29,119 nucleotides of DNA from positions 1-29,119 of the IMG/VR virus record IMGVR_UViG_3300037427_000046; one strand, given 5' to 3'. Shown one piece after another: positions 3,440 to 29,119 of this stretch. The stretch comes from a virus. A program made the translations under genes and the position numbers. Under the pieces are notes generated by a model, which saw only the letters and a program-made list of their open reading frames with translations, did no database searches and was not told the origin of the DNA. Numbering within the stretch: position 1 is the stretch's first letter; each line of letters begins with the position of its first letter.

Positions 3440-3551
3440 TTTTTTGATATATTCTAATTAAATCTTTTTGTTTCTTAGGCATTGATTCAGGATATGGAAA
3501 TCCAAACTGCATGACAAAGCTGTCTTTCTTTTTTGGATCATACAGTTTCAT
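3402..3551 (-). CDS. Small basic protein (49 aa), unknown
   Basis: A 49-codon reading frame in the gap between the sigma-like gene and the zinc-finger gene. The protein begins MKLYDPKKKDSFVMQFGFP and is lysine-rich, with a proline-containing centre. Its ATG (3551-3549) overlaps the 3' end of the sigma-like gene by 14 bases, and its 3' end overlaps the next gene by 38. Support is positional, since it fills an otherwise empty ~100-bp gap in a genome with almost none, and compositional. I do not recognise the family. Confidence 0.5.
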   Translation of the reverse strand: MKLYDPKKKDSFVMQFGFPYPESMPKKQKDLIRIYQKNEVLCTKQNIRG

Positions 3552-4119
3552 TCAATTCCTTTTTAATTATTTCTCTTACTTTGTCTATTGTCGTGAATAA
3601 GCTATTTCTACTGATCTTTGTCTTAGCTGCTAATGAATCTAATGTATTGCCTTCATAGTAATACAACTTAAATAATTCTGCATCATACCAATGTAAAGTA
3701 TCAAGAACACAATCAATCTTTTCTAGCTTGTTAAGCCTTTCGTGATCTATTTTCTCATTTGGCAAATTTGATATATCTTTATAGTGATTACTACCAGATA
3801 CTGTATAATCATCAACGCTGGTACAATTAGTAGAATAAATAGTGCTGTCAATATGCGTATAGTATTTTTCATACTTATAATAAAAATTACTTCTTTTACT
3901 TGTTAAGGCTCTACGTAATGCAACTGCTCCATATCTTATTATTCCATTCACTCCATCCTTTTGCCATATATCTGTTAAGTTCTGCCTGTTCATCTGAAGG
4001 AAGTATATCATTAATTCCTGAACAGCTTCATGTATTTTATTTTCATCTTTAGTAATACCGTAAGCCATAGTCCTAAATTTATCTGTCAGCTTTGATATTT
4101 CTATATATATATCAGTCAT
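3538..4119 (-). CDS. Sigma-70-like regulator
   Basis: A 193-residue protein with the layout of a small sigma factor. The N-terminal ~80 residues resemble region 2 (KIHEAVQELMIYFLQMN near 28-44). A variable linker follows, and the C-terminal ~45 residues contain a region-4-like helix-turn-helix (YYEGNTLDSLAAKTKISRNS, then an amphipathic helix IDKVREIIKKEL). Similar proteins are common in flavobacterial phages and are usually annotated as sigma-like or terminase-like HTH proteins. It is the best candidate in this genome for redirecting host RNA polymerase to late genes, possibly through the recurrent TTCTATTATATA motif. The link is inference. It overlaps its upstream neighbour by 8 bases. Confidence 0.62.
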   Translation of the reverse strand: MTDIYIEISKLTDKFRTMAYGITKDENKIHEAVQELMIYFLQMNRQNLTDIWQKDGVNGIIRYGAVALRRALTSKRSNFYYKYEKYYTHIDSTIYSTNCTSVDDYTVSGSNHYKDISNLPNEKIDHERLNKLEKIDCVLDTLHWYDAELFKLYYYEGNTLDSLAAKTKISRNSLFTTIDKVREIIKKELNETV

Positions 4120-18440: not shown

Positions 18441-20021
18441 TTATATTGTAGCTCTCCTTCTAATGGTAGCTAATTTATCTTGGTTATTCGTTATGTCATC
18501 ACTTACTACATAGGCTTGTACTGGCTCTGGCTTAACCCCACCTGTTAATTCAAAAGATCCCCCCATTGTCTGAGGTGCAGGGCCTTGTGCATTTGCGGTA
18601 GGTACTGATCCACCACCCCCACCACCAGGAACTGGAGTAGACATTATTTTCTTAACATTAGCTAATCCCTGTACAATAATAGCTGCACCTGTAACAAAGC
18701 CCAGAGTACCCCCCTGCTTAAATGCCTTATTAGCACCTGCATAAGTGTCCATAATTGCTTGTGCTACTGCAAGTTCTTTGCTTTCTCCTGCTAAACTCAT
18801 TAAAGCTCCTGCTAATTGTGAGTATGCACCAAGCTGTGTGGCTACATTTTCTGCAACCACCATAGATTTTTGTCTTTCAAATTCTTTTGTTATAGCAGTT
18901 GTTTCCATTCCTGACTTTCTAGCCATATCTAGCTTTAACTTGTAAGCAGCATCTAGCTCCTCTAACTCTCTTTCTAGACCTGACATACCTTCTGCTCTTA
19001 TTTCATTTTGAGATTCTAGTAATTCTTTATTTAAAGCTACTTCATTAGTTTTTTGCTCTGATAATTGCCCTGTGATAGTTTCCTCTAATTCAAGCATAGC
19101 AACTTTCTGTTCCTCTAATGCAATCCAATTTTCCTCACTAGCATTTATATCATATTGAGCTTGTGCAGCATCTATTTGAGTTTGAACTTGCTCTTTTTGT
19201 AGTTTTTGTTGTTCAGCTAAAATCTTATCAAGTTCTTTATTGGCTTCAATTCTTTCTGCAAAAGTCTTAGTTTCATCATCTCTTATTTGTCTTTGTACCT
19301 CTGCATCTTTTAAGTATTGAGCATTTAATCTAGCAAACTCTACTGCTGCTCTGTTTGCTGCTTTAGTTGTTTCTGTGATTGACTTTGCCTGATCTACTGT
19401 ACTTTTCGTGTAATCTATTACAGCAGCTGTTCCCTCTTTTACTGTTTTAGTCAGCTTATCAACGCTATTATCTACACCAGTCCAAGTATCTACCATTTCT
19501 TTTCCTGCGTTTACAGCTTCATCTTTAGCTGCTGCAAATTCTCCCTTAAATAAATGTCCGATAGCTTTACCTAAATGACCAATGACATCTAAAAAAGACA
19601 TCATTCTTTCAATTAAATTATCTTTGATAGCATTTGCAAAGTCTGTTAGAGCTTCTTTTGGATTTTCAAAAATATCTTTGAACCATCCTGTAACCTTGCC
19701 AACATTATTGCTTATAAAAGTAAATAAATCATTAAACGCTATTTCTAAAGCTGTCATAGCAGTATTGAAAGTATCAACTACTTTTTGGTTTTTACTAAAT
19801 ACTTCCATGAGTTTAGCAAGTAAAGCTACTGCTAAACCAATCCCTGCTGCTTTTAATGCAGTACCAATGCCTTTAATTGCTGTTCCCATACCCTTAAAGC
19901 CCTTTGTACCTTTATCTGTTGCTGGTTCTATCTTTTTTGTTTCTTTTACTAAACCTTTTACATCTTTAGTAACATCTCCAACATTTGCATCTATTTTAAA
20001 ACTTAACTCTGTATCTGCCAT
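18441..20021 (-). CDS. Tail tape measure protein
   Basis: A 526-residue, largely helical protein. It has an N-terminal glycine-rich/hydrophobic segment (GTAIKGIGTALKAAGIGLAV, about 47-66), a long charged coiled-coil region (about 215-400), a second hydrophobic section (LGAYSQLAGALMSLAG and FVTGAAIIVQGLANV) and a Gly-rich tail (PVPGGGGGGSVP). This is typical of tape measure proteins, which set tail length and enter the cell during DNA injection. By the usual ~0.15 nm per residue rule the tail would be about 80 nm. It is the last tail gene before the head block, which is unusual. Confidence 0.87.
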   Translation of the reverse strand: MADTELSFKIDANVGDVTKDVKGLVKETKKIEPATDKGTKGFKGMGTAIKGIGTALKAAGIGLAVALLAKLMEVFSKNQKVVDTFNTAMTALEIAFNDLFTFISNNVGKVTGWFKDIFENPKEALTDFANAIKDNLIERMMSFLDVIGHLGKAIGHLFKGEFAAAKDEAVNAGKEMVDTWTGVDNSVDKLTKTVKEGTAAVIDYTKSTVDQAKSITETTKAANRAAVEFARLNAQYLKDAEVQRQIRDDETKTFAERIEANKELDKILAEQQKLQKEQVQTQIDAAQAQYDINASEENWIALEEQKVAMLELEETITGQLSEQKTNEVALNKELLESQNEIRAEGMSGLERELEELDAAYKLKLDMARKSGMETTAITKEFERQKSMVVAENVATQLGAYSQLAGALMSLAGESKELAVAQAIMDTYAGANKAFKQGGTLGFVTGAAIIVQGLANVKKIMSTPVPGGGGGGSVPTANAQGPAPQTMGGSFELTGGVKPEPVQAYVVSDDITNNQDKLATIRRRATI

Positions 20022-26104: not shown

Positions 26105-26308
26105 TTATTTATTTTTTATTAATTCTAATATTTTATTTATTTTGTCTTTTATTTCACTCACATTGTCAGCATTCTTTTCATGATGCTTTTCAAAAGTGCT
26201 TTTCACTTCTCTTACACTAAAAAAAAAGAATTGATATAAAGCATAAAAGCAGCCTACTAACAAAACTAAGGTCACTCCGTATCTCTCTATTAATTCAAAT
26301 ATTTCCAC
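26105..26308 (-). CDS. Small membrane protein with C-terminal coiled coil (holin-like)
   Basis: A 67-residue protein starting with GTG in a TAGTG overlap with a 29-codon frame upstream. One membrane span (GVTLVLLVGCFYALYQFFFF, about residues 11-30) is followed by a charged coiled coil (VREVKSTFEKHHEKNADNVS, then EIKDKINKILELIKNK). This is the layout of BhlA/UviB-type holin-like proteins. Here it lies among tail genes, so a role in tail assembly at the membrane or in lysis cannot be told apart. Confidence 0.55.
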   Translation of the reverse strand: MEIFELIERYGVTLVLLVGCFYALYQFFFFSVREVKSTFEKHHEKNADNVSEIKDKINKILELIKNK

Positions 26309-26397
26309 TATAATTTAATTTTTATTGTTGGCGGTATTATTTTTATTTCTACTTTGCCTATCTTTATCTTATTTAATCTCATTAATATCTTTAACAT
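26308..26397 (-). CDS. 29-residue basic peptide, unknown
   Basis: A 29-codon frame beginning MLKILMRLNKIKIGKVEIKI, rich in K and I. Its ATG overlaps the upstream stop as TAATG, and its TAG overlaps the next gene's GTG as TAGTG. The double coupling suggests it is translated. Nothing is known about its role. Confidence 0.45.
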   Translation of the reverse strand: MLKILMRLNKIKIGKVEIKIIPPTIKIKL

Positions 26398-26945
26398 TAG
26401 TACCCTGCTCCTGCATCTGTAACAGGTATTATGCAAGTATCAAAGTCATTCATTACTTTCACTCCCATTTGAAAAACCCATCCACAGCAAAGATTATCAA
26501 ACCTTTCTTGAAAAGGCTCTATTGTAAATTGATCTTGTGTAAAGTATAATGGTGCATTAATATCGTTTGTTCCTGCTTGTGATTGTCTTGAACTATGCCT
26601 TAACATTCCAATGAAGTCAGTACATATTTCTAGAGTCTGATTAAATACTTCTTGTTCATTATTTTTCATATCAACCAGCTTAGTCAATTGCTCATGCTGT
26701 TTAGTCTGCCAGTCTTTCTTTTCACTTACCATATCCATAATAAAAAGCTGAAAGTTATATACTAATTCTGACTCTCCTGTTGTTACATTAACTGGATTGA
26801 TATGCAGTAAAGGAAACTTCTCCATCTTTTCCAAGTTGATGTCATATATATCCCCAACAGAAACGGTAGATATTTGGTCATGATATTGACCTAATCTAAT
26901 TAGTGTATTTACTACGTTGTTATATGTCTTATTGCTGACTGCCAT
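26397..26945 (-). CDS. Tail-region protein (possible tail terminator), unknown
   Basis: A 182-residue protein of a type common in Bacteroidetes phages: TYNNVVNTLIRLGQYHDQIS (7-26), FPLLHINPVNVTTGESELVY, FQLFIMDMVSEKKDWQTKQH and a C-terminal FDNLCCGWVFQMGVKV. The 'YNFQLFIMD' plus 'GWvFq..vkv' pattern recalls tail terminator/minor tail proteins. It sits after the tail assembly chaperone. Its ATG lies inside the C-terminal end of the -1 reading frame of that chaperone. Confidence 0.55.
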   Translation of the reverse strand: MAVSNKTYNNVVNTLIRLGQYHDQISTVSVGDIYDINLEKMEKFPLLHINPVNVTTGESELVYNFQLFIMDMVSEKKDWQTKQHEQLTKLVDMKNNEQEVFNQTLEICTDFIGMLRHSSRQSQAGTNDINAPLYFTQDQFTIEPFQERFDNLCCGWVFQMGVKVMNDFDTCIIPVTDAGAGY

Positions 26946-27186
26946 GTTTTACTTTGTTTTGTAAGTTTAAATCTATTTCATAACTCAGCCAAGTTAAGCA
27001 TTCTAACAGGCTAAGGTTTGTAATTCTTTCTAAGTTTACTATCTCCCCATTTGTCAATCTGTACATCACTCCGAACCATCCCCATTTTTCTGCGAAGGAT
27101 TCTGTTGCAATAGCTGATTCATTTCCTTCAGCTGATCCATCAAAACAGATGGCAAAGTCGTTAGCAATCCTTTCCCTAAATGATAA
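26929..27186 (-). CDS. -1 frameshift extension of the tail assembly chaperone (GT-like)
   Basis: The -1 frame of the chaperone gene is open without a stop from the slippery run at 27186-27192 to a TAA at 26929-26931. This would add 85 residues after chaperone residue 175 (260 in total). The extension includes ESFAEKWGWFGVMYRLTNGE, then IVNLERITNLSLLECLTWLS and YEIDLN. From memory, this matches a conserved type (KWGW..iY.L..GD..., ...LECL..L.yE) found in Bacteroidetes phages at this position. The motif straddles the ATG at 27066, so a stand-alone gene starting there would lack the KWGW part. That favours frameshifting. In lambda, G and GT chaperones load the tape measure protein. Confidence 0.68.
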   Translation of the reverse strand, partial: LSFRERIANDFAICFDGSAEGNESAIATESFAEKWGWFGVMYRLTNGEIVNLERITNLSLLECLTWLSYEIDLNLQNKVKHGSQQ

Positions 27187-27710
27187 AAAAAAACCAGTGC
27201 ATTTTGCACTTGCTGAGCTGACATCTTTTTCATCTGTTCGGCTCGTATGCTTATATTACCATCATAGGCTGCAATAGTATAAACTCCATTCTCTCCTTTC
27301 TCAGTAATAGGTCTATATAAGATTGCCATTACTTCTGGTAGGCTTTTCTCTACATCATTCTTAATTAGAGTTTCCAAATCTGCATACTCTCCTAAGGAAA
27401 TATCATCTAAATTAGGATGAAAGCCATACTCCTTTCCATCTACTTCTATTATCTTTTTTAAAGAACTATCTTGCTCTTGTTGTAACTCTGAGATCTTACT
27501 CATCATTACTGCCACATCTCTTAAAGACAATTCATCAATCAACTTCTTAGGAATATCTGACAAAGCAGCTATTGTTTCTTTCGCTTCTTTTGCCTTACTC
27601 TTGGATGAAAACTCTATCAGCTTAAGCCACTTTTCAAGAGTAACATCACTCCACTTGCTGATTAATTTGAACTGCTTTACCTTGCCTTGCTTCTTAATCT
27701 TTACCTTCAT
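27066..27710 (-). CDS. Tail assembly chaperone (G-like)
   Basis: A 214-residue, mostly helical protein: FKLISKWSDVTLEKWLKLIE (14-33), YGFHPNLDDISLGEYADLET (95-114), LPEVMAILYRPITEKGE, YTIAAYDGN, MKKMSAQQVQNALVFFYHLG (160-179) and a polar end KEMNQLLQQNPSQKNGDGSE. The residues before the slippery T-run (174-175) are the conserved part. The position right after terL, followed by a -1 frame extension, fits the lambda G/GT system. A TTCTATTATATA motif lies 4 bases before its ATG. Confidence 0.68.
   Translation of the reverse strand: MKVKIKKQGKVKQFKLISKWSDVTLEKWLKLIEFSSKSKAKEAKETIAALSDIPKKLIDELSLRDVAVMMSKISELQQEQDSSLKKIIEVDGKEYGFHPNLDDISLGEYADLETLIKNDVEKSLPEVMAILYRPITEKGENGVYTIAAYDGNISIRAEQMKKMSAQQVQNALVFFYHLGKGLLTTLPSVLMDQLKEMNQLLQQNPSQKNGDGSE
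27186..27192 (-). other. Candidate -1 programmed frameshift site (T TTT TTT)
   Basis: On the minus strand a run of nine T (27193-27185) is read GTT TTT TTT TAT, giving the in-phase heptamer T TTT TTT. It is 40 codons before the zero-frame stop. A GGGAAAG further downstream is out of phase. A downstream stimulatory structure was not evaluated. Confidence 0.66.
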
Positions 27711-27714
27711 CTAA

Positions 27715-27726
27715 TATATAATAGAA
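27715..27726 (-). promoter_or_regulatory. Recurrent TTCTATTATATA motif before the tail chaperone
   Basis: An exact 12-mer copy, 4 bases before the ATG at 27710 and 16 bases after the large terminase stop. It marks the start of the tail gene block. Confidence 0.55.
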
Positions 27727-27742
27727 AAATTCATAATTTAGT

Positions 27743-28954
27743 TTACTGTACAAAATACCTTCCTGCGTTTGGATTATCTAAGTGATAAATAACGTTATAT
27801 CTTACACCATCAATAGCGTGATTGTAATTATCTACATAGAGCTTTGATCCTTTGTCTGCGTAAACATAGTTGTTTAATTCTTTGGCTATGTTTGTTGATT
27901 CTGGGCTTACTATTAATTCATAGTCTTGCATTCTAGTTATACCGCTTTCAATAGTTCCTTTTTTAACTGGCTTAATGTTTACACCTAAATGCTTTAAATC
28001 TGCTATTAGTCTAGGCTCTGCTGAATCTGCTATGATTAACTTATCACTTATCTTGCTTAATATAATCTCAGCAAGTTGATTAGACTTTAATCCATTCTGA
28101 TAGATATGTTCTTTTAGATAGATCTTACGCTTAGACTTATCAATGGCTACTTCTGTTAAGCTGTCTGGATCAACGCTAAACCCAAAGTCCATTCCACAAG
28201 ATGTCTGTAAGCCATCAGGATTAAATTCTCCAAATGTCCAATTCTCAAACACAACACCCTCTGCTTTGTCTAACCAGCCACCAAGTATCTTATGCTGATA
28301 CTTTTTAAAGTTTCTATGCTTTATAGTGTTAATACGCTCTAGGAAGCTCTGTGAGAGATTTTCTCTGTTGTCTAGGTATGTACTATGGATATAGCATACA
28401 TTGTCTCTAACGCCATTAAAACCAGCTTCTACGCCTTTGTCTTGAAAGAACCTATTGTATATCCAATGCTCTTTAGTGACTGGGTTTAATATTAAGATGA
28501 TTCTGTTCTGCACATCTTTTTCCCTAATACTTAAATCAATCGTATCGAATATATCCTCATCAATCAATTCCTCAGCTTCATCTAATACCCACGTGCTTAT
28601 TCCTTGTAATGATTTAAGACTAGCTGTTTGATTACCTGCTGATGTCTTTATACCTCTAAATAGTATATCTGATTTATTGCCTAAGTTTACAACCTCAGCT
28701 TTGTTTACGCTAAAGATATTATCAAAACCTAATAAACTGATCTTTTCTAAGAATTCAGGAATAATTGAGAGATGTGCTGACACCATTGTGAATCTTGTAA
28801 ATAATACTCTAATGTTCTTAGACATTGTAAGCAGCGTAAGAAACACCGTTACAGCAAATGACTTTCCAGAACCTCTACCCCCTGTGATTATAAAGTAACG
28901 AGCATCAGATTCAAATAAAGGATTATATTTCTTATTCAGTATCAGTTTCAACAA
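27743..28954 (-). CDS. Terminase large subunit
   Basis: A 403-residue packaging ATPase/nuclease of the PBSX/terminase_3 type. Walker A GGRGSGKS is at 25-32, Walker B VLDEAEE at 123-129, a coupling-like ILILNP at 153-158, and RNase H-like nuclease acidic residues at D256 (CGMDFGFSVDPD), D310 (IADSAEPR) and D382 (HAIDGVRYN). It would translocate DNA into the prohead and cut the concatemer. The start is uncertain: the listed TTG at 28954 is followed by a second TTG, which is TAG in the other contig-end copy. A start at the nearby CTG codons is therefore more robust. It partners the small subunit, which overlaps it across the contig join. Confidence 0.94.
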   Translation of the reverse strand: MLKLILNKKYNPLFESDARYFIITGGRGSGKSFAVTVFLTLLTMSKNIRVLFTRFTMVSAHLSIIPEFLEKISLLGFDNIFSVNKAEVVNLGNKSDILFRGIKTSAGNQTASLKSLQGISTWVLDEAEELIDEDIFDTIDLSIREKDVQNRIILILNPVTKEHWIYNRFFQDKGVEAGFNGVRDNVCYIHSTYLDNRENLSQSFLERINTIKHRNFKKYQHKILGGWLDKAEGVVFENWTFGEFNPDGLQTSCGMDFGFSVDPDSLTEVAIDKSKRKIYLKEHIYQNGLKSNQLAEIILSKISDKLIIADSAEPRLIADLKHLGVNIKPVKKGTIESGITRMQDYELIVSPESTNIAKELNNYVYADKGSKLYVDNYNHAIDGVRYNVIYHLDNPNAGRYFVQ

Positions 28955-29119
28955 ATGTTATGACAGGCATATTAATAGCTTTATCTCCAGAAGTTACATC
29001 TAATCTATTCGTTTCATTCCATCCTAGTCTAGTCTTTGCTGCGTGTATTACAACTGAAGGCACTTTATCTTTTACACATTCATAATACTTTGACTTGATA
29101 AAGTCTTTTTGTATGTTTT
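28827..29119. repeat. Terminal direct repeat, copy 2
   Basis: This is the partner of bases 1-293, with 7 substitutions and no gaps. It holds the start of the large terminase and the 3' half of the small terminase gene. Confidence 0.93.
28932..29119 (-). CDS. Small terminase, C-terminal fragment (second copy, cut by the contig end)
   Basis: This is the last ~62 codons of the small terminase, truncated at the window end. It encodes the same amino acids as residues ~56-117 of the gene at 106-459. The three base differences are silent (GTA/GTT, GTT/GTC and ACC/ACT). Confidence 0.88.
   Translation of the reverse strand, partial: NIQKDFIKSKYYECVKDKVPSVVIHAAKTRLGWNETNRLDVTSGDKAINMPVITFVETDTE

Follow-up and report, generated by a model that had tools for sequence, protein, structure and literature searches.

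A conserved run of at least nine thymines probably yields two products of a tail-module gene in phages of aquatic Bacteroidetes

Organization of the locus

The window, that is, the whole stretch of DNA analysed here, is the 29,119-nucleotide IMG/VR record IMGVR_UViG_3300037427_000046. The source virus, a virus of marine bacteria, appears to make two versions, short and long, of one probable tail-building protein. The short-product gene is a zero-frame open reading frame (ORF) of 214 codons on the minus strand (27710-27066, stop TGA at 27068-27066). Within this gene lies a run of nine Ts (T9, 27193-27185), read as GTT TTT TTT TAT. On the same strand, the -1 frame runs uninterrupted from 27255 until its TAA at 26931-26929. 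Residues 1-175, up to T9, are common to the short and long products. Past T9, the -1 frame specifies an extension of 85 residues, LSFRERIAND...KWGWFGVMYRLTNGE...LECLTWLSYE..., and the predicted fusion of the two frames has 260 residues and 29.6 kDa. The relevant features, in the order of the minus strand, are the following:

27743..28954, minus strand: terminase large subunit (Pfam Terminase_3, E 2.7e-34), directly upstream in the window and in the Nonlabens phages
27066..27710, minus strand: zero-frame ORF, short product (G-like part); phrog_32199 match at E 3.8e-13, AlphaFold pLDDT 82
27185..27193, minus strand: T9, candidate slippage run, within which T_TTT_TTT (27192-27186) is in phase; 9-11 Ts long in all 326 contexts
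26929..27186, minus strand: -1-frame extension (KWGW domain), 85 codons plus stop, under purifying selection and aligned across 60 relatives; predicted all-helical, pLDDT 77
27064..27066, minus strand: -1-frame ATG, in a TGATG overlap with the zero-frame stop; missing in several relatives and hence dispensable
26397..26945, minus strand: next gene downstream, weakly phrog_30964-like, function unassigned; shares 17 nt with the end of the -1 frame
18441..20021, minus strand: probable tape-measure protein of the same tail module (phrog_3336, E 6e-10; phrog_1538, E 4e-6)

A preliminary description of this DNA had placed a slippery T_TTT_TTT at 27192-27186, in phase, and had the -1 frame open to 26929, occupying the 120-bp gap ahead of the next gene (ATG 26945). 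These coordinates hold. The heptamer is part of the longer T9, and the conserved unit, which that description missed, is nine Ts and not seven. It is also correct that the sole ATG of the -1 frame (27066) lies after KWGW; the adjacent GTG (27069) and TTG (27057) are likewise 3' of this motif. Another family, phrog_38404, matches 17 members of the extension's family alignment.

Relatives and conservation of the layout

Relatives were collected from five broad IMG/VR scans, which confirmed 298, 578, 520, 594 and 565 stretches and of which the best 80 each were kept, together with smaller IMG/VR scans. One scan was queried with the -1-frame part alone and therefore carries no bias towards the T run. 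The two-frame layout recurs, at identities as low as about 25%, in 326 distinct sequence contexts that comprise IMG/VR loci, the isolated Nonlabens phages P12024L and P12024S and two Bacteroidetes MAG contigs. Among annotated phages (tblastn) the matches were the two Nonlabens phages only, whose annotation gives the pair as two hypothetical genes immediately following the terminase, with a T9 at the equivalent place. Of two scans of bacterial genomes, one returned 0 relatives and the other the two MAG contigs.

A slippery run at the same place, for which the preliminary description proposed to test related genomes, is kept in all intact relatives as T9 to T11 (the sequences of L359 and L365 stop short of it). 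The layout is not a matter of chance: it is conserved, together with the run and the -1-frame protein, in all intact relatives examined. The run could also be conceived as a phase-variation tract, in which DNA replication slippage toggles the long form. Long homopolymers mutate easily, but the relation between the zero and -1 frames is identical in every intact locus examined, T10 and T11 variants retain both frames, and only the degenerate fragment L066 departs from the constant relation. This reading is highly improbable, and at the level of differences between genomes the constant frame relation in intact loci rules it out.

The fragment of L066 (1399-2073) carries a T10, an internal deletion and an in-frame stop, and was set aside as a degenerate or decayed copy or a misassembly. 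Six BFVD models (A0A6J5SVK3, A0A6J5N0W0, A0A6J7XA66, A0A6J5MY57, A0A6J5N3F3 and A0A516L611) match the zero-frame part and the extension in a single polypeptide (Foldseek). It is possible that these are distant relatives with one frame, or that some of the records contain homopolymer errors.

Genome neighbourhood

The conserved gene order is terminase, two-frame pair, phrog_30964-type gene, small tail-type gene, two large structural genes, tape measure, protease, capsid-like gene and portal. The phrog_30964 neighbour is found at the equivalent place in L338 and L340, and L338 has a clear tape measure where the window has its probable one. The two-frame gene is the first of the tail module and is not adjacent to the tape measure.

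Other observations concern transcription and the ends of the record. A promoter-like element (ACGTTATATAA or TTATATATTAG) is located immediately 5' of the gene's ATG in the window (27711-27730) and in L181, L184, L227, L252 and others, and in several relatives it is preceded by a terminator-like T run. This element may be a late promoter of the tail operon, with a leader that would be very short; a sigma-70 promoter scan within the window found nothing. According to PMC8710568, Shine-Dalgarno sequences are rarely used in Bacteroidetes. A small protein encoded at 3538-4119 of the window is sigma-factor-like by eye and might drive late promoters, and P12024L has an annotated Sigma-70 region 2 protein upstream of the terminase. 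Positions 1-293 and 28827-29119 of the window form an imperfect terminal repeat (286/293 identical). The genome behind the record is probably circular or terminally redundant, and the record was probably closed over two strains that differ slightly.

Coding capacity of the -1 frame

The share of codon differences that alter the residue was determined over 522 pairs of close relatives. In the zero frame 5' of the run this share is 47%. In the overlap it is 59% for the -1 frame and 83% for the zero frame, and past the zero-frame stop it is 55% for the -1 frame versus 84% for a control frame. By this comparison, purifying selection acts on the -1 frame after the run but not on the zero frame. Because the two shares in the overlap differ (59% versus 83%), the selected protein is taken to continue in the -1 frame straight after the run. 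The position of the zero-frame stop varies among relatives, and the zero-frame tail is free to drift.

The same data bear on a reading in which translational coupling at the TGATG overlap starts a small gene of its own in the -1 frame. In the window the ATG at 27066 does overlap the zero-frame stop, as it does in many close relatives. However, the conserved KWGW and the purifying selection on the -1 frame are located 5' of this ATG, the Met of the putative start is not invariant across the family, and the -1 frame has no ATG whatever in L006, L012, L024, L025, L030-L032, L035, L047, L067 and L069. Since selection begins right after the run and several relatives lack a -1-frame ATG, a separate gene is excluded for the family, and this reading is barely credible. 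In none of the relatives examined does KWGW belong to a gene of its own with a conserved start. The programmed frame change that the preliminary description had proposed to join the two ORFs gains support from the conserved layout and from the selection on the -1 frame, and the comparison of relatives demonstrates coding in both frames.

Length, phase and codons of the T run

Of the 326 distinct contexts, 287 have T9, 37 have T10 and 2 have T11, and the run is never T7 or T8. Its start occurs in all three codon phases (for example, GTT TTT TTT TAY, TTT TTT TTT GCT and GGT TTT TTT TTG), and on a tree of 75 rows the phase changed at least 7 times. The two Ts beyond the heptamer shift accordingly: both are 5' in phase 0, both are 3' in phase 2, and one is on each side in phase 1. 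Only the total length of the run is constant across phases, which is what an enzyme blind to phase would require.

The flanking codons compensate for each other. The codon before the central TTTs is TTT in 6/6 rows when the following codon does not begin with T, versus 1/69 otherwise (Fisher 3e-8); among independent pairs 5 agree and 0 oppose (sign test p 0.06, from five informative pairs only). The central Phe codons are TTT in 75/75 rows. At two control Phe sites of the same gene TTC is present in 18/71 and 18/69 rows, with at least 17 and at least 11 TTT/TTC changes on the tree, in a setting where TTT is already the preferred Phe codon (83%). From the comparison of relatives, selection for a run of at least nine is evident. 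Conserved V/L/I and Y/W residues are another possible reason for the outer Ts in the commonest phase.

Runs of this length are scarce elsewhere. In 423 other genes from 98 representative loci among L001-L419, A9 was observed 3 times versus 18 expected (ratio 0.17), A8 30 times versus 45 expected (ratio 0.67), and T9 0 times versus 2.9 expected. The drop from A8 to A9 suggests that slippage readily occurs on runs of nine in the hosts of these phages. For transcriptional slippage in many bacteria a threshold of nine has been described (PMC1088944), and the depletion at nine agrees with it. The window contains a second, unrelated T9 (26219-26227) inside a 67-codon ORF with a GTG start; there, T9 is present in 4/89 relatives and, unlike the run of the tail gene, is not kept.

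Slippage by the ribosome or by the polymerase

The -1 ribosomal slip, as put forward in the preliminary description, is only partly supported by these data. An in-phase heptamer of the X_XXY_YYZ type (T_TTT_TTT) is present in all sequences, and a ribosomal contribution is possible for this reason, although the heptamer is an automatic consequence of T9. U_UUU_UUC and U_UUU_UUY are among the efficient -1 ribosomal motifs in E. coli (PMC4066793), and tail chaperones of the lambda type are known to use -1 ribosomal frameshifting (PMC5009743). In its full form this explanation attributes the fusion mainly to programmed -1 frameshifting of the ribosome on T_TTT_TTT and the extra Ts to conserved hydrophobic and aromatic residues. 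Seven Ts would then suffice, yet T7 or T8 is seen in 0/326 contexts, and the length stays constant while the phase and the flanking residues change. T_TTT_TTC would also serve the ribosome, yet it is absent, whereas the control Phe sites change 11-17 times. Nor was a signal for a downstream RNA stem detected in 75 representatives (mean z -0.06 and -0.09, in a model restricted to stems), and runs of nine are depleted in the other genes. Ribosomal frameshifting as the main route is thus considered unlikely.

Transcriptional slippage is favoured because the length and not the phase of the run is kept, the central TTT codons are invariant, no stem is detected and runs of nine are depleted elsewhere. 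A run of at least nine in three phases, with no TTC, no downstream stem signal and depletion in other genes, bears the hallmarks of this process. Poly(T) is also the preferred slippage template of the E. coli polymerase (PMC6260861). Under transcriptional slippage, faithful transcripts with nine Us would be translated in the zero frame into the short protein of 214 residues. In a fraction of the transcripts the polymerase would slip on T9 and add one U (U10) or omit two (U7), and normal translation of these transcripts would give the fusion of 259-260 residues with the KWGW domain. On transcripts with U8 or U11, translation would end two codons after the run and the short form would be truncated. 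The ratio of short to long product would then be set mainly at transcription by the length of the run, with -1 ribosomal slippage as a possible contributor. A U10 transcript and a -1 ribosomal slip lead to the identical protein of 260 residues, and RNA polymerase as the main slipping machine is inferred, as are the product ratio and the chaperone function. On the genomic comparison, the two-frame locus is real, programmed and widely conserved, and transcriptional slippage is the more likely of the two mechanisms.

Identity of the two products

The designation of the gene as a tail assembly chaperone, given in the preliminary description, agrees with the two-frame layout and with the position in the tail module, and finds no significant match to a known chaperone family in sequence or fold. 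The searches of Pfam, PHROG and PDB returned no significant sequence match to known chaperone families, which are often unrecognisable between phages. Structure models built for each part on its own (AlphaFold) predict the zero-frame part with fair confidence and the extension as a helical domain. A fold comparison with the PDB (VIA-align) gave no row with Z of at least 5 and listed no chaperone row. Against BFVD (Foldseek), one weak match bears the name tail assembly chaperone (E 0.14), and the others are uncharacterised phage proteins, a P12024S protein among them.

A chaperone role is plausible from the layout and the position in the tail module. The pair could instead be another tail or neck factor that needs a long form, which would be compatible with either slippage mechanism. 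The lack of a Pfam, PHROG or PDB match to known chaperones and the several genes that separate the pair from the tape measure (in the window, L338 and L340) speak for such a factor. Against it stand the position of the pair at the head of the module that contains the tape measure, the two-frame architecture typical of tail chaperones and the weak fold match just mentioned. The alternative factor is judged possible but the less probable of the two. The two products are most likely a tail assembly chaperone pair, which by layout and genome position would be analogous to gpG/gpGT of lambda. Taken as a whole, a G/GT-like tail assembly chaperone whose long form arises mainly through slippage of RNA polymerase is a fairly probable interpretation of these sequences.

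Implications

It is an evenly balanced proposition that, throughout a large and mostly uncultured family of tailed phages of aquatic Bacteroidetes, polymerase slippage on T9-T11, instead of ribosomal slippage, sets the short/long ratio of the chaperone. If the polymerase slips at this site, tail assembly depends on the fidelity of transcription, and the length of a homopolymer alone encodes the ratio of two products. Annotation that seeks ribosomal heptamers would then misread or split the gene, as in P12024L/S, where two hypothetical genes are given. PHROGs divides it likewise into two families, phrog_32199 and phrog_38404. The family would also offer several hundred natural variants for the measurement of slippage in Bacteroidetes.

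Comparison with known systems

The recoding of tail chaperones is the textbook case of ribosomal frameshifting in DNA phages. In lambda, the tail assembly chaperones gpG and gpGT are made by a -1 ribosomal frameshift (PMC5009743). The T9 gene resembles this pair in having two overlapping ORFs, a long form obtained via the -1 frame and a place in the tail gene module, and the coding and selection evidence points to two products that share their N-terminal part through a frame change. In contrast, no sequence or fold relation between the two systems was detected. The lambda site is GGGAAAG, whereas here there are nine Ts with no signal of downstream structure, and the gene is not directly upstream of the tape measure (window, L338 and L340). 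The resemblance to G/GT is thus one of layout, and membership by descent would be conjectural.

Phage P2 makes E and E+E' by a -1 ribosomal shift on T_TTT_TTG. The likeness lies in the U-rich site, the tail gene and the -1 direction. The P2 site has seven bases and ends in G, whereas the run described here always has at least nine Ts. Given P2 E/E', a U-run site as such is not novel.

The Nonlabens (Persicivirga) phages P12024L/S (Inhavirus) carry the same gene pair as gp40/gp41, with T9 and the same position after the terminase. They differ in having about 30% identity and in the annotation of the pair as two separate proteins.

Genes with transcriptional slippage include mxiE and spa13 of Shigella, dnaX of Thermus (A9) and IS elements with A9 or T9 (PMC5009743, PMC1088944). 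The open literature searched (subscription papers lay outside the search) reports the process in bacterial and IS genes, and no case was found for a phage tail chaperone. The T9 gene shares with these examples about nine A or T inside the gene, two products and a conserved run, and it has both an A/T run of at least nine with conserved length and the avoidance of such runs in other genes. The known cases are bacterial or belong to IS elements, whereas the present one is a gene of a phage tail module.
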